64,000 bases of DNA, taken from assembly GCA_028753945.1 (NCBI GenBank), contig JAPNXP010000008.1:4588001-4652000 (forward strand), read 5' to 3'. The notes beneath the pieces were generated by a model. It had not been told where the DNA came from and searched no databases. It saw only the letters and a list, made by a program, of their open reading frames with translations. The DNA comes from Hexactinellida sp. DTS-2022 (Eukaryota > Porifera > Hexactinellida). Position 1 is the first letter of the stretch. Each line of letters starts with the position of its first letter. Shown here piece by piece: positions 41,251 to 63,180 of the stretch. Position numbers and translations under genes: made by a program.

Positions 41251-44200
41251 ATGGACCTGGATCGAATAAGGAGATTGGAAGAGAGCGTATTAGCTCTGCA
41301 ATTGGAGAACTCTCCTAAACAGGATTTGGATTCTGACGTTATAGCCAGACTGACGAGCTTAGAGACTTCTGTGCTACAGGAGAAAGCAATGAAGGGAGAG
41401 TTCAAAAGAAAACTCAAATTCGCGAACAATCAAAATAGCCGTCTCATCCTTAGACTCAAAAAGGAAAAGGTAAATATTTTGAAAATTAATTTATTTTCCT
41501 TTTGTATAACTCGGTTTTATTATTCATACATACTGAAATCAAGAAATCGGCATTACTTGTCATAACTGACATAAATTTTCTGAAATTTTCGTACCAAATT
41601 TAGTGATTTAGAGCATATATATTGCCATAACTCCAGATTTACCTGAAAAATTATGGCCCAATATTTTCATGGGAAATTAGAGCATTTATATTCGCTTTGA
41701 AATCGAGTTATTTTATGATAAATTGATTTTTTGAGCCCAAGACATATTAATCTTTTTAAGCACCCATAAAGTTAGCTTTCACCAAAAGGAGGGTTGCATA
41801 AATCACTGGGGTTTTCTTTCCAGGGATCGAACCAGGTTTTACAAGTGTAATTTGTTTGTTTTCCAATAAACTAAAAGAGCGAAGTAGTGATCTACAGAGC
41901 CTCCTAATAATGCACTCAATTCTGATTTATTTATAGAACAGATAGAGTAAGAATATTATCTTGTGGGCGAATATTAATAGATTTTATATTATCTATGGTA
42001 CATATATGCTATTGCAATAATTTAAGAATATTCGTATTAATATTGTAATCTCAGACAAATTAAACTTAAAATTGTCGATTTAAATCGACTATTTATTGTA
42101 TTTTTATTTCCACATTAATTTATTTGTATTTTCTATATATTTAAAGTTTTTATATTTTGTATTATAATACATAATATTCGCGTATTATATTATAAGAATT
42201 TCAATAAGATATCAATTCCTATTGTACATTTCCGTAACTAGGCTCGCAATGCCCTGTTTAACTACAGAATGAAAGGAACAAAACTGCCCATAACTCCCGA
42301 AAATAAAGTAGATACAAACTCCATACTTTCTGAAGATAACAGAATGTCTAAGAGTATGAATGACATATCTATGTCCACGTATGGTAACCAGGGTAGACAT
42401 GTCTCGGATTGGTCAGATTCCCAGAGTTTTACAGATGAAGATTCTAATCCTGCAATTAATTCTAATGTTTCTACTGACAAACTACACAATAATAAGGTGA
42501 TTATCTTATAAAACACTATTCTACAGTAGAACCTCGTTAGTAGGAACACCAGGGGACCGTAAATATGCATTGGCCTTATCCGAAATACGTATTAACTGGT
42601 GTCATTTGTATTGAAAAGGCTTTGAAGGGGACTTGAATAGTGTTCGTATTAACCGTGTTCTTACTAACGAGGTTCTACTGTATTTAGTTTATATTTAACA
42701 TTCCCAATTTCACTTAGTAAATATTTCGTTATTATCCAAGGTATTGTTTTTCGTGGGTCAAATTTATCCACGAATTCTTTGAATAATCCAGAAAAAAATA
42801 TTTAGATGGATTCTAATTGTTCTCAGCGACAGTAAACAGTTTGACCCGATTAAGCGGAGAAATCTATTAACCGAAAATATATTCAGTCAAACTGTAAAAT
42901 CCCACCTATAAATCCTGTGAATTTTCACCCGATTAAGCGGAGAAATCTATTAACCGTTGGCTCTATTAAGCGGAGTATACAGTAGAACCTCGTTAATCCT
43001 GATTTTGTGGAACTGTTTGTTCGTCTTATCCAGAAATTCGTACTAACCATTTTAACCGTGTTCGTACTAAAGAGATTCTACTGTATTATTTCCATTAGTA
43101 TTGTGTCTATATGAATGTACCTATCATATACCTGCCAGCATTATGTATAATGTCATATATAGTCCTGTATAATACCCTAGTGTCATATTGTCTGTCTGTT
43201 TGTTAGAACGGAGACAGGCGCCACAGCTCCACAGAGCTTAAAACAACGGAGCCTATCTCCGTACAGAGGATGGGAGTTAGGATGAACGGAGAGCAGGCAT
43301 TGCAGCTGTTACCCAGCTATCAGCGAACCTTAAAGCAACAGCAACAAGAGATTAGGGTAGGGGTGTAAATCCGGAATTCGTAAAAACCGGAGTTTGTATT
43401 AACCGTGTTCCTAGTACTTCCTACTAACGAAGTTCTATTATACATAGGTATTTAAACAGTGGTGTTCGTGTAATAACAAGTCGCTTTTACATGAAAATAA
43501 TAGGCAAATTTGCTACTAGAGGAACAGAATTAACATTAATAAATATTTGCTCGCTTGGCCTTTACACTAAGCTAAACTCCGTTAATAGGAACACGGATAA
43601 GGGAAATATCGGTTAAGGAGTACAAGGTTTAATTCCCCTAGCCTATACAAATGCATACAAGTGACTCCGATTAATACTAATTCCGGATAATACGAACATA
43701 TTAAGAAGTTAACAAGAGTCTACTTTGTTTGATATATTGTAGGAACTCTGCTTAAAGGTCAAAGCAATTGAAAGCAACTATTCAATATTAATTCAATCGA
43801 CGAAGGTATTATTTATAAAGCAATTTCATTGATTATCTTCTAGACGCTAATTGAACATAATTGTGGCAATTATTTAACTTTTATCGTATACATATTATGT
43901 CTGGACATTAATTAATAACTAACTTTTGTTTAATATTACAGAGCATATGTATATCCACCTTATAAACTTAAAACATTCAATTCAATTCTTATTAATTCTT
44001 CACCTGATAACTTAATTAACACAATTCTTATTAATTCTTCACCTGATAACTTAATTAACACAATTCTTATTTATTCACCTGATAAACTTAAAACATTCAA
44101 TTCAATTCTTATTAAACTATGGCAAATCAGTTATTAATTAAAACACCAATTTACTCAGCTGAATAGTGATATCCGATTATACATTTATGTGTAGAATAAA

Positions 44201-50109: not shown

Positions 50110-50550
50110 TCAGCTTGTCTTGAGTATCCTATTACGATTTATTCTGCACCTTTCATTGTACTTCTTGCAGTTGGTTCTTTTGCAAATTTTCTTCTTGTAT
50201 CTGTTTCGAATTCTTTGCAAATAATTTCCATCAATTAAGAATAATCTCTGGCATTCCTTCTTGAAGTGCATCCAATTTTTTATTGAAAGTTTTTCAGATT
50301 CTTTAAAATCAATATAAATTGAGTTACCCTGATAATCAAGATTAATGCTTCCTACATTTTCACGTTCAAATATAAAATGATCATTTTGTGTTTGAAACTG
50401 AATGCGAAAACGTTTTGTATCTTTTGCAGCAAAGTTGAAATAAGATTTTTTAAATTCAAAGTTGTCTTCATCGATGTTTTCAAGAAATTTATTAAAATCC
50501 ATAAATTCATTTATGGACACATTATGTTGATACAGTATAGGAGAGTTCAT
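50110..50550 (-). CDS. Cluster gene 1: 146-aa protein with shared basic C-terminal module
   Basis: A single-exon gene with no match I recognise. The N-terminal half is rich in Asn, Asp and Phe. The C-terminal part fits the family module: strand-like GNSIYIDF (about 76-82), helix NWMHFKKECQRLFL (92-105), then basic helix YLQRIRNRYKKKICKRTNC (110-128), compared with RLRYQKRHCK in gene 7. The tail (RCRINRNRILKTS) is basic, consistent with a nuclear or nucleic-acid-binding protein, which is inference. A TATAAATA box lies 47 bp before the ATG, and the start context is AAACAAAATG. This is the shortest member: the module with only a short leader. Confidence 0.82.
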   Translation of the reverse strand: MNSPILYQHNVSINEFMDFNKFLENIDEDNFEFKKSYFNFAAKDTKRFRIQFQTQNDHFIFERENVGSINLDYQGNSIYIDFKESEKLSIKNWMHFKKECQRLFLIDGNYLQRIRNRYKKKICKRTNCKKYNERCRINRNRILKTS

Positions 50551-51489
50551 TTTGTTTAGAATTTATTTATTTCGCATTTCTATTGATAATCGCCCATATT
50601 TATAACCTTGTTACTATTTAGTTTTTCAATTTCGTTTTAGAAAGTAGAAATCACAATTATAGACTCAAATACTTTCTGAGTCAAAATTTAATTATTATCG
50701 CTTATTACCACACACAACTCAATTTTCATTATATAATATTTTGGGTAATTGTATAATTTTTTTATTAGGAATTATGTCATTGCAATAAGTCTAAATTAAA
50801 TGAAAATTTCTGAATTACAGTCCGGTTATTTTATTATGAACATTCAATTGACCAAAATTCAAAAATTATGTTCATAATAGAGACTTCATAATAAGCGAAC
50901 TCAACTTAATACAAACCTTATGTAAGTTGTTAATTTGGGACCATAGGGCTTGTTCATAATAAAAAGTTTTTCATATTAAGCACAAGAAAAATATTCACAA
51001 TAAGCAGACCTGACTATTTGCTGAAAGATTGTTAGAATTTCTATTTTAATGGACAAATATTAACCTCCTTTGAGGCTAAAAATTATTAATACCCCGAGCT
51101 ATTATTCGAGTAAATACGGTATATACATTAGAGCACCTTTGTATACTGATTGTAACAATTATTTTAATCAACTAATACCATCAACTTCAAATAATAATAC
51201 ATCACAACTTAGAATATCAATATACTAACAAGTATTATTTATTTTCAAAAAATGATCAAAAATTCTAACTAATTTAAACATTAAAAACTAAAAAATCTAG
51301 CACTAAAAAAAGGAAAGAATACTTTTATAAAACTCATTATTTCTAAACTGAAAGAGCCAGGCTTACTTTCGAAGGTCAATTTTATAATTAAACTGAAATT
51401 TCTGACCTTTATCAATGCTGAATTTAGTATTCGAAGAAATGAGCTCAATGGTTGTTCACTATTTAGTGACAAGTTGTTGATGACAAGAT
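50551..51489. other. Spacer with a pogo-like MITE
   Basis: Holds the gene 1 promoter, an AAAGTAGAAAT motif (GTAGAA at 50,644-50,649) and a TTATTATGAAC-family MITE (50,816-51,015; starts TACAGTCCGGTTATTTTATT, ends AAGCAGACCTGACTA). The rest is AT-rich with no gene recognised. Confidence 0.65.
50597..50604 (-). promoter_or_regulatory. TATA box of cluster gene 1
   Basis: Minus-strand GGTTATAAATATGGGCG places TATAAATA 47 bp upstream of the start codon. Confidence 0.7.
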
Positions 51490-52116
51490 TTAGGAAATCC
51501 CTAAGGGTGTGTCAATATTTTCCGTTTTTGTTTTCTTATTTGAGTTGTTGTTGAAACTAGTTGCCTGTCTTTTCATTCCTGATTTTCTTGAGCTCTTAAT
51601 TTTATTTATTTCTTCAAAGTGTCCAGTTAGAGGTGTGTCGTCAACGAAATTCAATTTCAACCAATTTCCAATGTTTTTAATGAAATATTCCTTTTTATCT
51701 TCATCTCTTTTCCAGCAACGCTTGCTAAAACGATTAATTTCAGATTTAATATCGATTATAGAACTGTTATTTTCTTTATCATCTAATACTCGAAACGATT
51801 CATTGAATTTTTGTGTGAATTTTCTTGAATCTTTGCTAATTTCACGCACTTTAGTTAGATTAATTGAAATATATCCGGTGCTATTTGATTCAAAATTAAT
51901 CACTTGTTTGTACTGCTTAATAAATTCCTGATGCTTTTTAGGATCTTTTATTTCGACTTTGAACGTTCGAATATCATCTAATTCTTGCAGATACTTTGCT
52001 CGGGTAGATTGGAAAATAGTTTTATTAATAATATGGTTTTCTTGCTGGAGTTGTTCTACCATTATTGCCATTTCTGTTTCCTCTTTGAAAACTGGCATTT
52101 CTACTGAATGTGACAT
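51490..52116 (-). CDS. Cluster gene 2: 208-aa protein, most divergent family member
   Basis: Single exon, Lys/Asn/Ser-rich. The N-terminus (ETEMAIMVEQLQQENHIINK) is predicted helical and perhaps coiled coil. The module is recognisable but weak: GYISINLTKV (about 81-90), DSRKFTQKFNESFRVL (96-111) and SEINRFSKRCWKRDEDKKEY (125-144), where F and W stand in place of the family's Y and K. About 65 residues follow, with a basic cluster KSSRKSGMKRQ and a nuclear-signal-like NKKTKTE. I see no TATAAATA box. Membership in the family rests on the order and spacing of the three blocks and on position in the cluster, so it is less certain than for the others. Confidence 0.75.
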   Translation of the reverse strand: MSHSVEMPVFKEETEMAIMVEQLQQENHIINKTIFQSTRAKYLQELDDIRTFKVEIKDPKKHQEFIKQYKQVINFESNSTGYISINLTKVREISKDSRKFTQKFNESFRVLDDKENNSSIIDIKSEINRFSKRCWKRDEDKKEYFIKNIGNWLKLNFVDDTPLTGHFEEINKIKSSRKSGMKRQATSFNNNSNKKTKTENIDTPLGIS

Positions 52117-53789
52117 TCCTATGTTTATTTCAATCTCGAAATTTTTTCTTTTGCTTTCAAAAATTATCCTTTTATTGTTTTCAATATGTACTTATTTGTC
52201 ATTTTTTGTACTATGGTGGGAGTTCTCGTAATTTTATAATCAAATTTTCTACCAAATTAACGACTTTCTAAGCTTGCGGTATAAACTATATCTAATGCCA
52301 ATGCAAATTCATTTTTAACAATAAAGTAGACTCTGGCGTCAATAGAAACACGGTTAAGGTGAAATATCGGTTAAGGAGTTACAAAGTTTAATTCCCCTAG
52401 CCTACACAAATGCATGCAAGTGACCAGTTAATACGAATTAATTTCAACGATCCCCTGGTGTTCCTATTAAAAAGAGTTTACTGTATTCTAGAAAATTAAA
52501 ATTAAAAAGTAGTAACTAATAAGAAATTATTTGCATTTGATTAAATTAAATTGGAGATATTTATAATCTTATTCAGAATAAAATTGTAAATTCATTCGTA
52601 AGATTGTTACAAAGCTAATGAAATAAAATTCCCTAAAATCCTTCAAATCTGCTTCTTTTTATTATACATGCAAAATATTAAAATTTTAGAATCCAATTGT
52701 GCAACACATACTGATGCAGTTAATTTAATTTTCAACTGTTACTAAGTGATTTGTCTTAGAAATTCAATACATTAACTTTTGGGTGAATTTGAGCTCTACT
52801 TGACCCGAACTAATTCCATATTAATAATAATAATAATATTAATATTAATAATAATAAATATAGTATCGTTGCATAATAATCATAAACTTCTTTTTGAAGA
52901 ATGATTACCAATTAATAGGCATTTAACAACGCCCCTAATGTGGTCCAAATCATTGATACTTTTATTATATAAATGGCAATAATAACTTCGTTAAAGTTAA
53001 AGCATTTTAATGTATCAGAAATGTAAATTATTTGCGATATTCTAGATAAACAGTTGTGTTATAGTAAACTCTTGTTAATAGGAACACGGATAAGGGAAAT
53101 ATCGGTTAAGGAGTACAAAATTTAATTCCCCTAGCCTATACAAATGCATGTGACTCCGGTTAATACTAATTCCCGGAGAAACGAACATATTTCGACGGTC
53201 CCCTGGTGTCCTATTAACGAGATTCTAAAGTAACTATTCGCGACTTGATTAATTGAATTTTATGAATCAAAATGTCCAGCTAACAGCTGATAAGAGATTA
53301 TTAGAAAAGTAATATTTATTTTGTGGGTTATACAATATTCTACCAATCTGTGATGACGGAATAGACATTATTATTATTAAAGGTAATGTATTATTATTTC
53401 GGTAGAATTTTTATTGAAGCAATTAACCGAACTCTACTTAGTATTTACTTATTAAGTATCAATCGTTTCAATTTGTGTGGTTTATACTATCTTTTTTTGC
53501 TCTATATCATAAGAATATTAATTTTTATTGTTAAGACTACTATGTTATGGCTTTTAAGAACTAAACTAGAACTTTAATGAAAGATCCACAAAATACAAAT
53601 ATTTACAAATACGTACAGTAAAAAATAAAAATAAAAAAAAATACCAAAACTGGGCCACTATAGTATAGTATAGTCGGCAACCGTAATAACTAAGCTAAAC
53701 AAATTATAATAATCAGTGACTGAGATTCTTAGTTTGAAACAACAGTGTAATCTCAAATATAGGGAATTACTAATTTCAGTTTTTATATA
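52117..53789. other. MITE-rich spacer between genes 2 and 3
   Basis: No gene seen. Degraded pogo-like MITEs lie at 52,325-52,485 (AATAGAAACACGGTTAAGG to AAAGAGTTTACTGTA) and 53,058-53,233 (AAACTCTTGTTAATAGGAAC to TATTAACGAGATTCTAAAGTA). An (AAT)n-like stretch is at about 52,822-52,858. A 63-codon open frame at 53,386 is AT-rich and unsupported. Confidence 0.65.
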
Positions 53790-54320
53790 TTATTCTGTAC
53801 GTCTCTTTTTGTGATGAGCGGTTTGACTACAAGTTATGTTGTATTCAGGATGATTCCTTTTATTTATTTTCTTCTTGTACATGTTCCTAAATTCCTGGAG
53901 ATGGTGACCTTCAATTGGGGAAAACATAATTTCAAATAGAAATTTGAAGTTTTTCCAGTCTTTCCCTTCGAGCTGTTCAGTTTTTTCAAAATTCACAAAC
54001 ACTAAATTATCGTGAAAGTATATAATTACATACCATTCATAGGCTTCTAAAAACTCATTATAATTTCTCTGGGTAATTTTATGTCGATTAAAAGGAAATC
54101 CGACCCATTCAGTATTTTTATCTTTGATAACTTCAAGTTTAATTGTTGGTGCCTTTGCTTGTTGTGGGTAGTTATACGTATTAGTAGAGCTATTTGCATT
54201 ATAGCCTAGATTAATAGCGTTATGTGAATTGTTGGGATAATTGTTTGTAGGTGTTTGTACATCGATATTTTGTGAATAGCCGTCATTGTAGAAGGTGTCA
54301 AAAGATCCAATTGAGCTCAT
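53790..54320 (-). CDS. Cluster gene 3: 176-aa protein with family C-terminal module
   Basis: Single exon. Residues 1-55 are Asn/Ser/Tyr/Pro-rich and probably disordered. A segment APTIKLEVIKDKN follows. The module covers about 100-165: strand DNLVFVNF, helix LEGKDWKNFKFLFEIMF, basic helix HHLQEFRNMYKKKINKRNHPEY. The family Cys in the basic helix is Asn here, and the W...N/Y ending is kept as HPEY. The C-terminus AHHKKRRTE looks like a nuclear signal. It is closest to gene 1 in the basic helix (RN-x-YKKKI). A TATATAAATA box lies 43 bp before the ATG. It is transcribed divergently from gene 4 across a 727-bp spacer. Confidence 0.85.
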   Translation of the reverse strand: MSSIGSFDTFYNDGYSQNIDVQTPTNNYPNNSHNAINLGYNANSSTNTYNYPQQAKAPTIKLEVIKDKNTEWVGFPFNRHKITQRNYNEFLEAYEWYVIIYFHDNLVFVNFEKTEQLEGKDWKNFKFLFEIMFSPIEGHHLQEFRNMYKKKINKRNHPEYNITCSQTAHHKKRRTE

Positions 54321-54362
54321 CTTCGTATTTTGTTTGTTTATTTAAATTATATTATTCCACAG

Positions 54363-54372
54363 TATTTATATA
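54363..54372 (-). promoter_or_regulatory. TATA box of cluster gene 3
   Basis: TATATAAATA on the minus strand, within AGTTATATATAAATACT, 43 bp upstream of the ATG. Confidence 0.75.
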
Positions 54373-54992
54373 TAACTGTGTGAATATTATTATTGATTTA
54401 CATCATTACTTGTTTTGTTCCTTAGTAGAAACATTAATTATTTGGTGGCATGTTTCGCTATTTATAAATGTCTAATTGCTTAATATAATCATTGTTTGCG
54501 AAAATCAAGTCGTATTTTCATGAATTTTCTTTGCTAAAAGGCGAATCGAAACTATTCTAGATAAAATGAACAAAATAAGTGGAATCGACTGTCCATTGAT
54601 AACCACAATAAACAGTATTTCATAAAACCACACGGCATATGTTGAATGCGCATAAGTGGTCCAAAACACTTTCAATTGAATAAGGTATATGTGCAGCTGA
54701 TTCTACTTAAATGCTTAATATTCAAATTAATAATGTGTTAGTAGAATTTGTTGGCTTTTCTTCTTTTAACGTCATCACATGGCAAAATAATTCTAGACAG
54801 ATTTAATGTAAATTCTACTTACATATTTGCAAGATTTGTTAAATATGGTTAGTTTATCTTTGAGTACGAGTCAATAATTGCCGTTTTTGAAAATTAACAA
54901 TGAACCACTTTTTCTACTTTGAAAAATAGTTATACCCTTATCAGAGTGCAATAAACTTCAGAGCTAAACATTATAAGCAGGATTTATATCAG

Positions 54993-55000
54993 TATAAATA
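54993..55000 (+). promoter_or_regulatory. TATA box of cluster gene 4
   Basis: TATAAATA within AGTATAAATACTAC, 48 bp before the ATG at 55,048. A three-codon open frame (ATG at 55,033) lies between the box and the start. Confidence 0.75.
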
Positions 55001-55047
55001 CTACATATGTAGTTATTAATTAATTAATTAAAATGCTTAATTAACAC

Positions 55048-55767
55048 ATGTGTCAATTAACAAATACACACAAAATGCAAACAACAACAACAAACAACTT
55101 ACCTTTTAAAATAAAATCCATTAAATTGGTCGATTCATCGATTGTTATTCAGCTAAAACCGGCATTTTCAGAAGAGTATATCCAAATGACTTTGATACTA
55201 AATTACAAGTGTCTGAAATTAAATACGAACATTCCGGAAATAATTATTGATTTAATTGCATTTATGGAATTAAAAGGAGTTTCTTTTAATGAATTTAAGA
55301 GAGATTGGTGCGCTTATTTTATAAATTTTCCGAATGAAATAAAAGAAATTAGAAATAAATATTCCAAAAAGGTTTGCAGAGTTAAAAACCGTCCAGAATG
55401 GGATAAGACTTTTAGAGAAAAGGGAAAACAGAAAAAATTAAATGAAACACGAGTTATGAAAGTGAAGAGTCCTCAAAGGAAAATATACTACACCAATTTG
55501 TCAGAAATTAAATCTAGAAAATATAGTATAGCACTATTAGAGGTTCCTTACAACATCAAATTCAATCATAAGATTATTCTAAATAAAAAATTTCCGCAAG
55601 GGAAAATTCCTAACTCACCTATATCGTTGCCAGGAGATTATACAATGGAATGTGTGTTCGATTTTGATCGGAGTACAAGGCAGTTATCTGCAGAAGAACA
55701 GTATTATGCATTTCTTATCGATTCTTGTTTATACGAGGTCGCTTTACACTTTGAGAATCTAACATGA
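55048..55767 (+). CDS. Cluster gene 4: 239-aa family member with extra C-terminal region
   Basis: Single exon. An N-terminal FKIKSIKLVDSSIVIQLKP looks like beta strands. The module lies at about 50-118: NYKCLKLN, helix VSFNEFKRDWCAYFINF, basic helix NEIKEIRNKYSKKVCRVKNRPEW, which keeps R-N-x-Y-x-K-K-x-C-R and the terminal W. Unlike its relatives it goes on for about 115 residues with no low complexity (VPYNIKFNHKIILNKKFPQG, YTMECVFDFDRSTRQLS), so it may carry a second folded domain. An in-frame ATG at 55,075 in a better context (CACAAAATGC) is an alternative start. AATAAA at 55,802, just inside a MITE end, could serve as polyadenylation signal. Confidence 0.85.
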   Translation: MCQLTNTHKMQTTTTNNLPFKIKSIKLVDSSIVIQLKPAFSEEYIQMTLILNYKCLKLNTNIPEIIIDLIAFMELKGVSFNEFKRDWCAYFINFPNEIKEIRNKYSKKVCRVKNRPEWDKTFREKGKQKKLNETRVMKVKSPQRKIYYTNLSEIKSRKYSIALLEVPYNIKFNHKIILNKKFPQGKIPNSPISLPGDYTMECVFDFDRSTRQLSAEEQYYAFLIDSCLYEVALHFENLT

Positions 55768-55798
55768 TTCCTATTTTACTTCAATTTACTAAAGAAAC

Positions 55799-55988
55799 TA
55801 CAATAAAACCTTCAGAAAGTGAACACCCTGGGGACCAGCCAAAACGTTCACTTTTGAGGTGTTCACTTATCATGATTTATCATAACGTGTATATAAAGCA
55901 ATGAGGAAAATTTGGGACCTAGAAAAAGTCTTCATATTTTGGAGTTTTTCATTTCTTGAAGGTGTTCACTTTTGGAGGTTTTACTATA
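55799..55988. mobile_element. Pogo-like MITE, AAAACCTTCAGAAAGTGAAC family
   Basis: Starts TACAATAAAACCTTCAGAAA and ends GTTCACTTTTGGAGGTTTTACTATA (split: GTTCACTTTTGG, AGGTTTTACTATA). Internal GTGTTCACTT half sites. Solo ends of this family lie at about 36,174 and 38,170. Confidence 0.78.
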
Positions 55989-56252
55989 TATTGAAAGATA
56001 CAGCTAACTCAATAATGGCATGGGTCATTACGATTTTTCTTAATTTCTGAGATTAAATATTCTATTTTGCTGATTTTAAATTTTGTATTTTGTAAATAAT
56101 TTATGTAAAATATATTATGTTAAACTTTCATTTCTAACTGCAGTGAGCTTCTATAATTATACAATTAGGAACAGTAATAAGTATACTGTATATAATTGGG
56201 ATAGGGAAAAATATTCCTTAATTATTACATGTGTTTTACTGTATATAATATG

Positions 56253-56518
56253 TACAGTGGTGTTCGCTTAATAGCAAGTCGCATTTGGACGAAATTGCTT
56301 GAAATATATTAACATTATATTCTGGATGAAAACTAACTTGTTAATACAGCGATTCCCAATATTTTTCAACCGTGGATTTCATATAACAAAGATCAAACAT
56401 TATGTGGACCCCCTCCCATTAACCGTAATACAATTTTTTTGTTGGGAACCACTGTGTTAATAGAAGAACAAAAAGCAGAAAAAAGCAGAACAATTGCTTT
56501 TAGGCGAACGCTACTGTA
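56253..56518. mobile_element. Pogo-like MITE interrupted by a hAT-like MITE
   Basis: Outer ends TACAGTGGTGTTCGCTTAAT and TTTAGGCGAACGCTACTGTA belong to the TAATAGCAA family. The element is split by the insertion at 56,347-56,454. Confidence 0.82.
56347..56454. mobile_element. hAT-like MITE nested in a pogo-like MITE
   Basis: 108 bp with ends CAGCGATTCCCAA and TTGGGAACCACTG and an exact 8-bp duplication TGTTAATA on both sides (56,339-56,346; 56,455-56,462). CAGTGGTTCCCAA-type ends are typical of hAT elements. Confidence 0.9.
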
Positions 56519-57330
56519 CGTATATATATATTCCTATTTGCCTATTGTAACTCCTAAGTTTGTTACTTATATTAAATTTATTGCTGTGTATTAGAATCTT
56601 ACTCTGTGATTAGTAATTTTATACTCAATAGTTTGGTTTGTAATCTATAAAACAAACTGTTACAGATCGAAATTATTGTTGATTCATATTTCAAAGCTAA
56701 AATATCATAGAATAATATTGAAAGTAACTTAGAAGTGCCTGAATTAAAATTACCTAAATATTGTAGAGCAAGCTTGCACGTAGGTATGTTACAATGAAAT
56801 CATAAACTTATTCACTATAAAAACTATCTAAGCACAATATTCTCACAGAAATTTAACCATGGATTTACTATAATTTATGAAATATGATTATGGGCTGGAT
56901 TTATATTAATAATTATGGACAAAATGAATTTAAATCACACAAAAACAATGGACTTGATTTGGATTGTAATCCAATGGATATATAATACCAAATATAATTA
57001 TACGTCATATAATAATTCCTTCCATATAGCACTACATATTATAGCTTTTAAATTAATTTATTCTGAAATAGTGTTGTGTTATCATGTTACAATTAATATT
57101 CACACTCTGTATGAAGAGATTAAATATTATAGATTTCTACTGTTACTTTTACTGACATTCAAGGAAGTTACATTAGTAATAATTAATTAATAATATATAT
57201 TATATGAATTTACTTATACAGCGAATGTTATTCTAAGATGTTAGTTGTTGAAGATTTATCCCGATTAATTAAAACGCAGTAGATTCTATTAAACATACTT
57301 ATATAATTACATATATATAATATAAGAATT

Positions 57331-57460
57331 TACTTATCCACCGATCATCGGCGTTTGTATTAAATAACCTGGCTATTTTCTACCGATGGTGTTTTTTATA
57401 AACATAAAAAAACAATCGGTAGAAAGTAGCGAGGTTTTTTAATACAAACGCCGATGATAT
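57331..57460. mobile_element. Second copy of the fold-back MITE, right arm decayed
   Basis: Left arm TACTTATCCACCGATCATCG matches 45,199-45,343. The right arm keeps AATACAAACGCCGATGAT, then is lost. Confidence 0.8.
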
Positions 57461-57820
57461 TTGGTTTATCGGGTTGTCTTAATTAAACAGAATATACTTA
57501 TGTATAGAGGTATTTTTATCTATAAACATTTTGTATATATGTATACTAAAAGTAATATGAATTGTTTAATTAATTAAGAAATACATATATAATATGTTAT
57601 AAAATGGCAAAAATATATAATATATAGAATAATACATAGTACATACTAGTAAATTAATATTATCTACGTACTTTTTTTCATATACAAGTACTTAACCATT
57701 TGAGTCGCTTTGGACTTGGACTTGGATTTTATTCTGTTTATAAATATCTAAATCATACAATCATACCCTATCCTGCATTCTAACTAATTTGGAGATTCCT
57801 ATATTAGAGTATACTTCCTA

Positions 57821-58495
57821 TTAATCACCTGTTACTAACTTTATTCTCTTTGGTGAGTTTTCATCATCGTTCTTGTGAACGTATTTCCTTTTGGTTCGCT
57901 TATTTTTACTGTACCTCTTTTGGTAACGCCCCCTTTCTTTTTCCATCGTTGTTTCCTCTTTCTTATATGTTAAAATGAAATTATTCTCGCACGTTTTATT
58001 AAACTCTTTCGCTTCTTTGAAATATATTTTGCTATAGTAAATATCAAAATTTATCTTTAATAACTTCTTTTCTTTGTCAAGGAGAATATAATCACTTTGT
58101 TTGTATTTATCTTCGAATTCGTCTAATTTATTTGCCACTTTTTCTTCTATAGTGAATGTCCGATCATATTTCCCTTCAATGAATTTTGACATTTGTTTAC
58201 TATTTGTTTCATGAACTTTCTTAAATGTAGGATTTTCTACTGAGCGCTTATAAGTTATATTTCCTTGTCCTATTTCTTGCTCTATTGCATGATTTGGAGT
58301 GGCATTATTATTGCTGTTGTTGTTGTTGTTGTTACAATATTCAAACTTTTGTAGATCAAATGGATTTGGATGCTTTACTAATACATAATTAGCATACTTT
58401 ATAAACTGACATACAGTATCATGATCATCGTTGTTTAATAGATAAAATAGAAACTTTTTCAATTCTGAATAGTTCGGGATATGATGATGAAACAT
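57821..58495 (-). CDS. Cluster gene 5: 224-aa family member with Asn tract
   Basis: Single exon; start set at the first ATG (58,495), not an upstream in-frame TTG. The N-terminus MFHHHIPNYSELKKFLFYLL is helical. An Asn tract (about 55-64) is coded by a GTT-type run on the plus strand. The module lies near 143-205: KLLKINFDIYY, helix YFKEAKEFNKTCENNFIL, then a basic helix EKERGRYQKRYSKNKRTKRKY, very close to genes 6 and 7 (RYQKR). The tail SPKRIKLVTGD resembles a nuclear localisation signal. A TATATAAT box sits 64 bp before the ATG. AATAAA on the minus strand (57,728-57,733) lies 88 bp past the stop. It is transcribed divergently from gene 6. Confidence 0.85.
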   Translation of the reverse strand: MFHHHIPNYSELKKFLFYLLNNDDHDTVCQFIKYANYVLVKHPNPFDLQKFEYCNNNNNNSNNNATPNHAIEQEIGQGNITYKRSVENPTFKKVHETNSKQMSKFIEGKYDRTFTIEEKVANKLDEFEDKYKQSDYILLDKEKKLLKINFDIYYSKIYFKEAKEFNKTCENNFILTYKKEETTMEKERGRYQKRYSKNKRTKRKYVHKNDDENSPKRIKLVTGD

Positions 58496-58558
58496 TAATC
58501 CTGTCAAAATTGTGTTGTGTTAATATTACAACCGGTTAATTCAATGGAAAGTTCCACA

Positions 58559-58566
58559 ATTATATA
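58559..58566 (-). promoter_or_regulatory. TATA-like box of cluster gene 5
   Basis: Minus-strand GGTATATAATTG, 64 bp upstream of the ATG. Confidence 0.55.
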
Positions 58567-59664
58567 CCGATTGAAGATTTTATGTATTAAATTAATTATC
58601 TTTTATTTATACTATACGTATAAGAATAGTAGTAGAATTTTCTCATTAAAATCACAAATATTATTTTGATACTAATGGATGCAATTCCACTTTAGGGGTC
58701 ACAATACATGTTTTGGTAGATAGAGAAATTGATTTATATATTGTGGCCTGTTCGTTAATATTCGTTAATAATAACTGATTGGTAATATCTCTATTACAAA
58801 TAGATTTCTCTTTTTGGTAGAAATGTTAAAAGGTCCTTGGCACTAAATGTATTCATTTCTACTATAGAAAGTCCAAAATAAATCTACTTTGACTACATTT
58901 CTATTTTACTGACTGCTTATTCCATTTTATTGTGGTTGGACAGTTTTAATCCATAACTTATTTGTAAAATTTTCAAGAAATACTATTATGTAATAAAATA
59001 TCTACTTTCCAAACCTCAATGGTAGTTAAATAATCTGTAGAAAATAGTATAATTCTTTGTATTATATAATTTTTATAGTATTACTCTTGCAATAAATATT
59101 GGAATAATATTAATCAGCAATTCAATAACTATCTTCATTCTTGTATTTTAATTAATGTTACTTTAAGTTGAGCAGCTCCTATATAAGTATAACTATTTTT
59201 GCTTTATAATATTTGCTATTAGCTTCTAGCTATAAATTAGGTAATTTTATAACAAAGCGGGAAATTTAGTATAATGTATTGAAATTTTATTTTAGAATTA
59301 AATATTATTAATCAACGCTCGAAATAAATTACAGGTAATTTCTTAGCTTGCAACAAAAACTACCTATTAACCTATAGTAATAGTATGTACTGATTGTAGC
59401 AAACTTAGTATTTAGTAGAAAACTAAAATCTTCAAGGGAACAGTAATTTACTGAGCAAAAAGAAATTTATTATTTTAATTTTGTTCATTTCGTAACTATA
59501 TACATTTTAATTTCAATATAAATATCAATTCCTGTATTATAATTTATATGGCATAGTCTTTACCTTAATTCAGGTAGTTTTAGTCAAAGGGAATTGTTGC
59601 GAACTGTTATTTACCTTAAGTACCAACAAAGTAAATTACCTTCAAACAAACTTAAAATGTATAG

Positions 59665-59672
59665 TATATAAT
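59665..59672 (+). promoter_or_regulatory. TATA-like box of cluster gene 6
   Basis: TATATAAT within AGTATATAATATAATAT, 55 bp before the ATG at 59,727. Confidence 0.5.
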
Positions 59673-59726
59673 ATAATATTTTGAATTTTCTTTAATTATT
59701 CAATTATCTGTGTTATATTGAACAAA

Positions 59727-60635
59727 ATGGATGATAAAAATATATCGTGTCAACAAATTAATAATTTACAAGCTGAAATTCAGCCTAAAAAGTATCAAAT
59801 TGTAAATATACAAATATTATTGGAAGAGGGGTCTCCCATTAAAATTAGTTGTAATAAAAATTCAACAGAATTGCCTGCTAATTTGAATGTCTTCAAATTT
59901 AACTTTGAACAGACTTTCAACAATAAAGATGATCAAATGACCAGGGACACCCAACAACAACAACAACAACAACAGCAACAACAACCATTTGATTCAAGTC
60001 TGTTGGAAAATGCTAATATTACACCAATAATTCATAGTTCCAATTTAACAAGTATGCCTAAAGAGAATATATGTACCAAGGATTATTCACAAGATTGCCA
60101 ATTTTTCAAAAATGAATTTCCTGAGCCTATAATTCCATCAGCCCCTGTTTTGTATAGCAATCCAATTGAAATCCCTATTTACAAACAAGGGATAATGCAA
60201 AACCAAGCAAACATATTTTATCCAGGAATGTATCAAAATATGGTAATAAACCCTCAGTTTGGAGGAATAAAACACAAAACTAACCATCCAACAATTCGAG
60301 CAAATAAGATTGAAAGCGCTAGCAGTAAAAAAGATGTCAGAAAATTCAAAATCAATTCAATAAACCGAGAAAAGAAGGGATTCTTGAATATGTATCAATT
60401 TGCTAACGTAGAAAACATAAATAATGAATTGTATTTAGCCATTAATATCGCTGAATACTGCCAGTTGAGGGGAGAAGAGCTTAGCTCTTTCAATCAACAA
60501 GTTGAAGATATTTTCTCTATAGACTTTAATAGCAAATATTCATTAATAAAACATGAACGACTTAAGTACCAAAAGAGGGCGTGTAAGAACAAAAACAAAT
60601 ATAGATGGGCTTCTTGTACAAGGAATTATAAATAG
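59727..60635 (+). CDS. Cluster gene 6: 302-aa family member with Gln tract
   Basis: Single exon; start at the ATG in GAACAAAATGG. Residues 1-65 include a beta-like segment YQIVNIQILLEEGSPIKI. A Gln tract (about 76-86) comes from a CAA run near 59,953-59,985. The middle is Pro/Asn-rich and probably disordered. The module fills the C-terminus (about 204-297): KFKINSINREKKGFLNMYQF, ELYLAINIAEYCQLRG, SFNQQVEDIFSIDF, HERLKYQKRACKNKNKYRW, then SC. It is the closest relative of gene 7, sharing FLN-x-Y-x-F, the LRG turn, ERL-x-YQKR-x-CK and W-x-SC. The Cys at the end and in the basic helix might matter for metal binding, but this is only a guess. Confidence 0.88.
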   Translation: MDDKNISCQQINNLQAEIQPKKYQIVNIQILLEEGSPIKISCNKNSTELPANLNVFKFNFEQTFNNKDDQMTRDTQQQQQQQQQQQPFDSSLLENANITPIIHSSNLTSMPKENICTKDYSQDCQFFKNEFPEPIIPSAPVLYSNPIEIPIYKQGIMQNQANIFYPGMYQNMVINPQFGGIKHKTNHPTIRANKIESASSKKDVRKFKINSINREKKGFLNMYQFANVENINNELYLAINIAEYCQLRGEELSSFNQQVEDIFSIDFNSKYSLIKHERLKYQKRACKNKNKYRWASCTRNYK

Positions 60636-61227
60636 GTAAACTCTCTTAAACCTCATAAAAAATATTCATATAAAACTACTCTAAATTAAATTGTTTTATA
60701 CACTATATTTCTCTAATATTTATTTCCTTTCTCTTTGATTAATATATTTAAACAATAATATTTTACTGTTGCAATTACTGTATTTAAATAAACAAGTTAT
60801 TATCAAGTACACTTTACTTTTCTGTTGTAATTACTGTATTAAAATAAACAAGTTATTATAAAGGACACTTTAAGAGAGAGAGAGTTTCCGATTAACTAAT
60901 GATACCTGGATATTTAGGCTCTCATTTATCTATAAATACATGAGGAATTATTTAGATTTTAAGTATTTTATTCAAAGCTGAAAGCTAATGAACATTTATT
61001 GTAGACTACTAGGCATTGAAAGTATGTGGAAATTAACTTCAATTAAATATATTGATTATTTAATTTATTTTATATCTCATATGCTTAAATGCTTGTAATA
61101 ACTGGAATTAACTATTTTATTTAGGGCTTGAAACTTATTGAATTCTGACTAATTTGGATTGTAATTTTTGGCCAATCAAATATTGCCTTATACAAATAGC
61201 AGGTGAGTTGTAGGCATAGCATACGGT

Positions 61228-61237
61228 TATATAAATA
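61228..61237 (+). promoter_or_regulatory. Orphan TATATAAATA box
   Basis: GGTTATATAAATAGGG resembles the gene 1 box (GGTTATAAATATGGG), but the first ATG downstream (61,322) opens only 11 codons. A possible relic of a lost family member or a non-coding transcript. Confidence 0.35.
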
Positions 61238-61612
61238 GGGTCTGGAATTGATTGTTGATCAGTTTGTTTGCTTAATCTTCATTTTTGACATATCGGAGCA
61301 GTTGGTATTGGAGAACTATTAATGTTATTTCTCAGGAGAGACATTGTAAGTTATTGAAATTAATAAATATATATTACATAGATTATTATATCCTTGTCTT
61401 TAACTTAAGTCTTTAAAACAATTTGTTTATAGTATACAAATAAAATTAAATCATTTTCTCCATTTTCTAGAATACACATTTCTACCTTATTATTCATTGT
61501 TGTATTGTATATTATTATTAACATTCTACTTTACTGTATCATGACCACTAATATACTTCCAATTCTTATGATTCCAATATTATTAGTTAATATTACTATA
61601 TATATTACTTAT

Positions 61613-61790
61613 AAGTAGACACTTTTAATACACTCGTTAATAGGACACGGATAAAGGAAATATAGGTTAAGGAGTAGAAAGTTTAATTCCCCTAGCCTAT
61701 ACAAATGCATGCAATTGACTCTAGTTAATACGAATTCCGGATAATAAACATATTAATTTTGATGGTTCGTATTAACGAGAGTCTACTGTA
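61613..61790. mobile_element. Degraded pogo-like MITE
   Basis: CTCGTTAATAGGACACGG, CCTAGCCTATACAAATGCAT and the right end ATTAACGAGAGTCTACTGTA match the family at 43,568, 49,024, 52,325 and 53,058. Confidence 0.75.
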
Positions 61791-62171
61791 CTTTGAAGAA
61801 AGAAGAAATTAGTTCATTTGAATCTTAAGTAGTATCCGCTTACTTGAGGCACTGTTTAGTTGACTCAAATTTGTTACTAATTTTATTGTTTTTTTAGAAC
61901 TACATAAATAGATTATTATCAGTTAAAAAATATAAGGGATATTCAAACTTCAAATATCGCAAAATTTCAAAAAGATTGGGCACTTCATCCCTATATTATA
62001 CCCTATTTTATTGTATAATTATGTAAGACATAATGATGGTATGTTTGTATATTGACTTATATTAACTAATTATAGCGATTCACTTTTATTTAATGCACGG
62101 TTAGTAATTCCAACAAAATATCAAATTATAATAGCAAAACATTATGTACAATTAAGAAAATTAACTAATAA

Positions 62172-63128
62172 TTACGGAGAGTATATTCCAAAATATTGCA
62201 AATCACTACTACTAGAGTCAGTATCTGGATTTATAAAATCGCAATACCTGTCCTGATCTGAGAGTGGTGTGGAGGAAGGAATGGGAGATGGAAACTCTGG
62301 TGATGTGCTATGTGATGGGCTTTGTAATGGGATATGTGATGGGCTCTGTAATGGGCTCTTTAATGTGCTTTGTGATGGGCTTTGTAATGGGCTCTGTGAT
62401 GGGCTTTGTAATGGGCTCTTTAATGGGCTTTGTAATGTGCTTTGTGATGGGCTTTGTGATGGGCTATGTGATGGGCTTTGTGATGGGCTCTTTAATGGGG
62501 TTTGTGCTAATGGAGCAGGGATCTCGCATGTTGATTTCGATGCTGTTTTCTTTGATTTATTATTATTCTTTTTGCAGGAATTCCATTTGTGTTTGTTTAC
62601 ATATTTGCAATGTCTCTTCTGATACCTTAATCGCTCCGCTTTCACAGAACATATGTTTATGTTAAGGAAAGTATTTACACACTTTGTGTTGAATTTTGTA
62701 AGTGTGTGTCCTCTCAAAGAATCGTACTTAGCGATATCAATATCTAAATATGATTTCCCATCCTTATTCGCTATTTGTGTGAATTTGTATATGTTGAGGA
62801 ATCTCTGCACTCTTCCGTTTGTTTTACTAAACTTGAATGGTCTGATATTATTCTTAACACACCTTTTGTGTGTATTATACCCTCCATGCTTGTTAGTGTA
62901 TTCGCGTGGATAATTTGTTAAACTCCCAACAGGGGAATGAGGATATAAATCTGTTATTGATGGCTCTAAGGAATTGAGTTCAATTCGGTTATAATAATCA
63001 TGATTTCCTGTAACTCTATTAATAGGATAAATTGTAATGAATGGTTGTTGTTGTTGTTGTTGTCGCTGTTGGTGTTGATTTGGGCTGGGAAAGTAAGCTT
63101 GATGAGTTCGTTGTTGTTGTTGATCCAT
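62172..63128 (-). CDS. Cluster gene 7: 318-aa family member with Gln tract and Ser-Pro repeat tail
   Basis: Single exon. The N-terminus is Gln-rich (MDQQQQ...; QRQQQQQQPF at about 21-30). The module covers about 97-185: RPFKFSKTNGRVQRFLNIYK, KSYLDIDIAKYDSLRG, TLTKFNTKCVNTFLNINI, SVKAERLRYQKRHCKYVNKH, then KWNSC. After it comes a basic KKNNNKSKKTASK and, at about 211-285, tandem Ser-Pro units (SPSQ, SPLQ, SPLK) from a 12-bp DNA repeat. The C-terminus is acidic and Ser-rich. Ser-Pro and Gln tracts flanking a basic module would fit a transcriptional regulator, but this is inference. A TATAAATA box lies 45 bp before the ATG. Confidence 0.88.
   Translation of the reverse strand: MDQQQQRTHQAYFPSPNQHQQRQQQQQQPFITIYPINRVTGNHDYYNRIELNSLEPSITDLYPHSPVGSLTNYPREYTNKHGGYNTHKRCVKNNIRPFKFSKTNGRVQRFLNIYKFTQIANKDGKSYLDIDIAKYDSLRGHTLTKFNTKCVNTFLNINICSVKAERLRYQKRHCKYVNKHKWNSCKKNNNKSKKTASKSTCEIPAPLAQTPLKSPSQSPSHSPSQSPSQSTLQSPLKSPLQSPSQSPLQSPSQSTLKSPLQSPSHIPLQSPSHSTSPEFPSPIPSSTPLSDQDRYCDFINPDTDSSSSDLQYFGIYSP
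62310..62500 (-). repeat. 12-bp minisatellite coding Ser-Pro repeats
   Basis: Units such as GATGGGCTTTGT and AATGGGCTCTGT (plus strand) repeat about 15 times inside gene 7 and encode S-P-(S/L)-(Q/K) units. The repeat stays in frame, and open frames on the opposite strand are its shadows. Confidence 0.9.
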
Positions 63129-63172: not shown

Positions 63173-63180
63173 TATTTATA
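63173..63180 (-). promoter_or_regulatory. TATA box of cluster gene 7
   Basis: Minus-strand GGCTATAAATACTAG; TATAAATA is 45 bp before the ATG. Confidence 0.75.

Follow-up and report, generated by a model that had tools for sequence, protein, structure and literature searches.

In the glass sponge Hexactinellida sp. DTS-2022, a 64,000-bp stretch of contig C17 (positions 4588001-4652000, here called the window; genome of 112.4 Mb in 18 contigs) carries seven intronless open reading frames (ORFs), g1 to g7, on both strands between window positions 50,110 and 63,128, and sequence comparison indicates that they form a real, undescribed protein family. The first-pass annotation of the window had correctly noticed this family as a cluster of seven paralogues sharing one module, and all seven ORFs were found at their positions on both strands. 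While the seven genes are real, the array is larger than proposed: it continues past the window edge with g8 (C17:4652334-4653098, 254 aa) and g9 (C17:4654810-4655430, 206 aa) and thus comprises at least nine genes within about 17.3 kb. Based on the homology of these nine genes, a conserved basic helix, a structure model of g8, the placement of TATA boxes and relatives of g3, g6 and g8, we see an even chance that the array encodes small nuclear regulators, a family restricted to one lineage; that they enter the nucleus, bind nucleic acid and act in regulation is in each case inferred.

Homology of the array genes

Common ancestry was accepted because leave-one-out profiles of g1 to g9, scoring between 20.0 and 115.1 bits, outperformed all shuffles (0/2000 reached the score of any gene) and all other frames. 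Each gene ranked first out of 341, i.e., the gene itself plus 340 other stop-to-stop frames of at least 60 aa taken from the window and nine other retrieved stretches, with the ten family frames removed. The lowest scores were those of g3 (20.0 bits, with its orthologue P0003, described below, excluded as well), g2 and g4 (22.0 bits each). The genes in the window are as follows:

g1, 50110..50550, minus strand: 146 aa single-exon ORF; module at about residues 44-146 (window 50113-50421); basic helix LQRIRNRYKKKICK; leave-one-out score 32.2 bits
g2, 51490..52116, minus strand: 208 aa single-exon ORF; module at about residues 38-150; basic helix IKSEINRFSKRCWK; 22.0 bits
g3, 53790..54320, minus strand: 176 aa single-exon ORF; module at about residues 66-176; 20.0 bits
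g4, 55048..55767, plus strand: 239 aa single-exon ORF; module at about residues 20-135, followed by a tail of about 100 residues; 22.0 bits
g5, 57821..58495, minus strand: 224 aa single-exon ORF; Asn tract, then module at about residues 108-217; 38.8 bits
g6, 59727..60635, plus strand: 302 aa single-exon ORF; Gln tract; module at residues 196-302 (window 60312-60632); 115.1 bits
g7, 62172..63128, minus strand: 318 aa single-exon ORF; N-terminal Gln tract; module at about residues 88-205; Ser-Pro-rich tail from 12-base repeats; 101.2 bits

Genome-wide searches with single proteins linked g7 to g6 (E 1.3e-15), g1 to g3 (E 3.5e-7) and g5 to a copy of g8 on contig C1 (E 0.0026). When g2 alone was searched against the 112-Mb genome, it found only itself among the window genes and otherwise, at E 0.81, a tenth gene, g10 (C17:4476410-4476985, 191 aa), which was first met in this way about 160 kb from the array and scores 28.5 bits with the family profile vs. 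5.9 bits for the next frame at its locus. The search with g4 alone yielded g7 at E 0.28, while a match on C6 that is riddled with stops ranked higher (E 0.02). Rescoring with the family profile, applied to frames of at least 50 aa at the respective loci, identified the weak genome matches of g1 (C11), g4 (C6, C15), g6 (C16) and g7 (C5, C18:944348) as chance similarities (no more than 4.7 bits), and the remaining weak matches of g7 fall mostly on its Ser-Pro tail. The paralogues are mostly 22-42% identical in local alignments, the pairwise E-values of this comparison holding for a set of 16 proteins. Altogether, the family occupies at least 11 places in the 112-Mb genome.

The copy of g8 on C1 (C1 14034262-14034798, 178 aa) is 85% identical to g8 and 5′-truncated, with the homology starting within the coding part of g8. 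A poly(A) tail was sought at its 3′ end and no clear one was found, so that a retrocopy, which would imply transcription, is not supported.

The shared module

The module comprises about 105-110 residues. The blocks that the first-pass annotation had described, namely a short strand, a helix with a central Phe and a basic helix, are indeed shared, but the module is longer than these blocks and starts about 60 residues before them, at an 'RKFKI' strand. In g4, the alignments place EIIIDL before the Phe-containing helix, and not the strand CLKLN that had been assigned there. The module is not strictly C-terminal either, since tails follow in g2, g4, g7 and g10, the latter (L070:1489-2064) ending in a Gln- and Tyr-rich tail. 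Low-complexity arms or tails that are Gln-, Asn-, Ser-Pro- or Tyr-rich are found in several members.

By-eye counts over an alignment of 17 modules show that the basic helix carries Tyr or Phe at position 8 and Lys or Arg at positions 11 and 14 in 17/17 cases, and Lys or Arg at position 10 in 16/17. Its consensus is approximately IKxERxxYxKRxxK, in which a hydrophobic stripe (positions 1, 4/5, 8, 12) lies, again by eye, opposite a Lys/Arg face. The structure model of g8 is confident for the module at residues 121-253 (ten-residue means of 77-95, with three blocks at 64-69) and mostly disordered in the arm preceding it. It contains a beta-hairpin and, in this one model, separate helices at residues 196-211, 213-232 and 237-253. 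The fold predicted for g8 consists of an alpha/beta half, in which a strand, a helix, a beta-hairpin, another helix and a short strand follow one another, and of a long basic helix.

If the array genes encode nuclear regulators, a disordered low-complexity arm or tail would be joined to a single folded module, whose small alpha/beta half may present the long basic amphipathic helix. This helix could then contact the DNA major groove or RNA and its basic stretch might double as nuclear signal, while the tails would recruit partners. Alternatively, the module may be a protein-interaction domain, used for dimerization or as scaffold, with a basic helix that mainly serves as nuclear or ribonucleoprotein localization signal and binds no specific sequence. 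This is possible, if on the unlikely side, as Tyr/Phe 8 and the basic positions 10, 11 and 14 are kept more regularly than a bare localization signal requires.

Promoter-like TATA boxes

Upstream of six of the genes in the window, the following boxes were found:

TATA box TATAAAT, 50598..50604, minus strand: -54 of g1
TATA box TATAAAT, 54364..54370, minus strand: -50 of g3
TATA box TATAAAT, 54993..54999, plus strand: -55 of g4
TATA-like box TATATAA, 58560..58566, minus strand: -71 of g5
TATA-like box TATATAA, 59665..59671, plus strand: -62 of g6
TATA box TATAAAT, 63174..63180, minus strand: -52 of g7

Together with g8, seven of the nine array genes (g1, g3, g4, g5, g6, g7, g8) contain TATAWAW at -75 to -35 of the start codon, a match being absent from this interval in g2 and g9. 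By chance a mean of 1.2/9 would be expected and 0/2000 first-order resamplings reached seven, and TATAAATA occurs in 4/9 genes vs. 0.12 expected (0/2000 resamplings reached four), the true strength of both enrichments being lower because the interval was picked after the upstream sequences had been inspected. Also g10 has TATAAAT, at -62, and no TATA match is present within 120 bp of the start of the C1 copy of g8. Boxes placed in this way speak for real genes with short leaders.

Relatives in a second species and divergence of the family

Among 5.8 billion proteins, a search that requires shared 5-residue words and similar length, and by which distant relatives could be missed, yielded six relatives at E≤10 (P0001 to P0006), all from ENA and each a single member sequence. 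Likely orthologues are P0003 of g3 (61% identity, full length), P0004 of g6 (68%, 218 columns) and P0001/P0002 of g8 (52-53%). Searched against the whole genome at E≤10, P0003 found g3 (6.9e-61), g1 (1.4e-8), g4 (9.2e-5) and nothing more. In a tree of 17 modules, the groupings of g3 with P0003 and of g8 and its C1 copy with P0001/P0002 are firm, those of g1, g3 and g4 with P0003 (82/90) and of g2 with g10 (94/94) are weaker, and the deep order is unsettled, with long branches for g2, g4, g5 and g9. P0006, from another genome, combines the module with an unrelated N-terminal part, which suggests domain shuffling unless it reflects a gene-prediction error.

P0001, P0003 and P0004 each lie on a contig 490,128 bp long, and from this identical size we infer that it is one and the same contig. 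The array is thus probably common to two species and, if the three genes do share a contig, it predates the species split, with much of the paralogue divergence being older still. The same seems to follow from the identities themselves, because the likely orthologues of g3, g6 and g8 retain 61%, 68% and 52%, while the paralogues mostly retain 22-42%. With gapped columns excluded, identities within and outside the module are of the same order: 62/109 within the module and 48/65 in the preceding part for g3 and P0003, 84/106 and 65/98 (outside) for g6 and P0004, 71/134 and 63/116 for g8 and P0002, and 74/135 and 25/58 for g8 and P0001.

These values bear on the rapid evolution that the first-pass annotation had proposed, and which remains unproven at 61% (g3), 68% (g6) and 52% (g8) identity, figures that cover array genes alone and do not tell fast from slow evolution. 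For the only recent duplicate pair, g8 and its C1 copy, dN/dS is 0.58 (NG86) or 0.41 (YN00), which says little because one of the copies lacks a promoter-like TATA box. That the array is a fast-evolving cluster of reproductive or immune effectors, a guess of the same annotation, appears very unlikely. The low identity of the paralogues would fit such a cluster, and, according to a study on glass sponges (PMC10282587), Aphrocallistes vastus has a tandem cluster of AIG1-domain paralogues, mostly single-exon (38/50), that is thought to be immune. The AIG1 cluster is built on another domain and its expansion is described there as unique to one species, the array being probably common to two. Against the effector reading, no hydrophobic leader is evident by eye (no signal-peptide predictor was used), the Pfam search recognized no effector domain and the likely orthologues keep 52-68% identity.

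The intronless state of the genes had been taken as a mark of the cluster, set beside putatively intron-rich neighbors. In the neighboring 34-50 kb of the window only short open frames were seen. PMC10282587 reports 12,409 transcripts with a single exon alongside 19,578 genes for A. vastus and 9,872 alongside 16,340 genes for Oopsacas minuta. Since single-exon genes are, on these counts, common in glass sponges, the intronless structure is unremarkable and the argument drawn from it is weak. Single exons on both strands would also suit genes left behind by, or domesticated from, a mobile element, i.e., a single-exon DNA-binding protein that spread and was then kept. The 5′-truncated copy of g8 on C1 and the combination of module and unrelated N-terminal part in P0006 point in the same direction, and retrotransposition has been proposed for novel single-exon genes of A. 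vastus (PMC10282587). Nevertheless, such an origin is quite unlikely, given that copies are few for a genome of this size, a second domain is recognized in none of the members and the C1 copy has no clear poly(A) tail, while the TATA boxes and the probably shared array in the second species point to ordinary genes.

Comparison with known families

In agreement with the first-pass annotation, which knew of no named domain that fits, neither Pfam, NCBIfam, PHROGs nor PDB sequences contained a convincing match, nor did the members hit different known families. At E<0.001, there was no match in Pfam for 12 members (best 0.0042, CotZ, for 1/12), in NCBIfam for 16 members (best 0.017, for 1/16) or in PHROGs for 12 members (best 0.0043, for 1/12; phrog_650 at 0.0066 in 2/12); for the seven window proteins, every Pfam match was below the cut-off. 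Against PDB sequences, g8 alone gave one row at E 1.6 and the family profile one row at E 0.51, and a single-protein search of phage records with g8 returned nothing. The family is described in none of the literature titles and abstract openings searched.

Several individual candidates were considered. The basic helix together with 'NK..WASCTR' looks Maf-like by eye, and ERLKYQKRACKNKNKYRWASCTR recalls the Maf basic region of CNC/Maf bZIP proteins (PF03131). This resemblance was rejected: hhalign against a small three-row Maf profile aligned a single column at a probability of 0.1, within the 0.0-0.2 range of 30 controls with shuffled columns, no leucine zipper is evident in the one g8 model, and none of 12 members matched PF03131 at E≤1 in HMMER, whose filters drop weak matches. 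MADF/Myb-like domains (PF10545) presumably resemble the module in helix order and in a basic last helix, but the g8 model has a beta-hairpin, and none of 12 members matched PF10545 at E≤1; the genome's own matches to this domain lie elsewhere, at two loci on C4 and C14. ETS and winged-helix domains, considered on grounds of helix order, had no Pfam match among 12 members. Among the nearest known systems are ferredoxin-like folds (ribosomal protein S6 permutants, Lrp/AsnC regulators), with a beta-alpha-beta-beta-alpha-beta core. Rows such as those for PefR, Hop2-Mnd1 and MscS, which match mainly C-terminal helices, are background.

Genomic surroundings

The window has a G+C content of 26-35%. 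Its positions 1-34538 are occupied by a 158-bp satellite array of about 218 units by length; the 4.9-Mb contig ends about 0.3 Mb away. A 121-bp variant recurs within the satellite (rows 2424, 11382, 17343, 20146, 23895, 27493, 27928 and 31363), which suggests a higher-order repeat. A tRNA-Val (tac) gene is present at 41810-41880, and a dispersed, MITE-like element of about 200 bp at 50816-51015 has at least 41 other matches (77-89% identical) on at least 16/18 contigs. Directly past the array are single-frame genes for NHL-repeat proteins (L039:7088-9154, L041:8052-8942). A further frame (L044:9085-9633) is NHL-like by eye. About 36 kb past g9 lies a single-frame Maf-type bZIP gene (L043:4782-5333; PF03131, E 3.1e-7). 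An 859-residue frame (L047:214-2793) contains a long run of near-identical RHIPKGDTLDTTDA-like repeats inside what we take to be a formylglycine-generating-enzyme domain. TGF-beta domains occur at four places of the genome, as befits an animal. A search for Wnt came up empty, in line with what is reported for O. minuta (PMC10280926), but it also detected nothing in any of 14 control genomes and is therefore no proof of absence.

Implications

The family is probably lineage-restricted. It is a defined target, with one module at 11 or more genomic places and a cluster probably present in two species, and its constructs would be compact enough for binding and structure work. If its members are indeed home-grown nuclear regulators, they would show an early animal lineage making regulators out of new domains.
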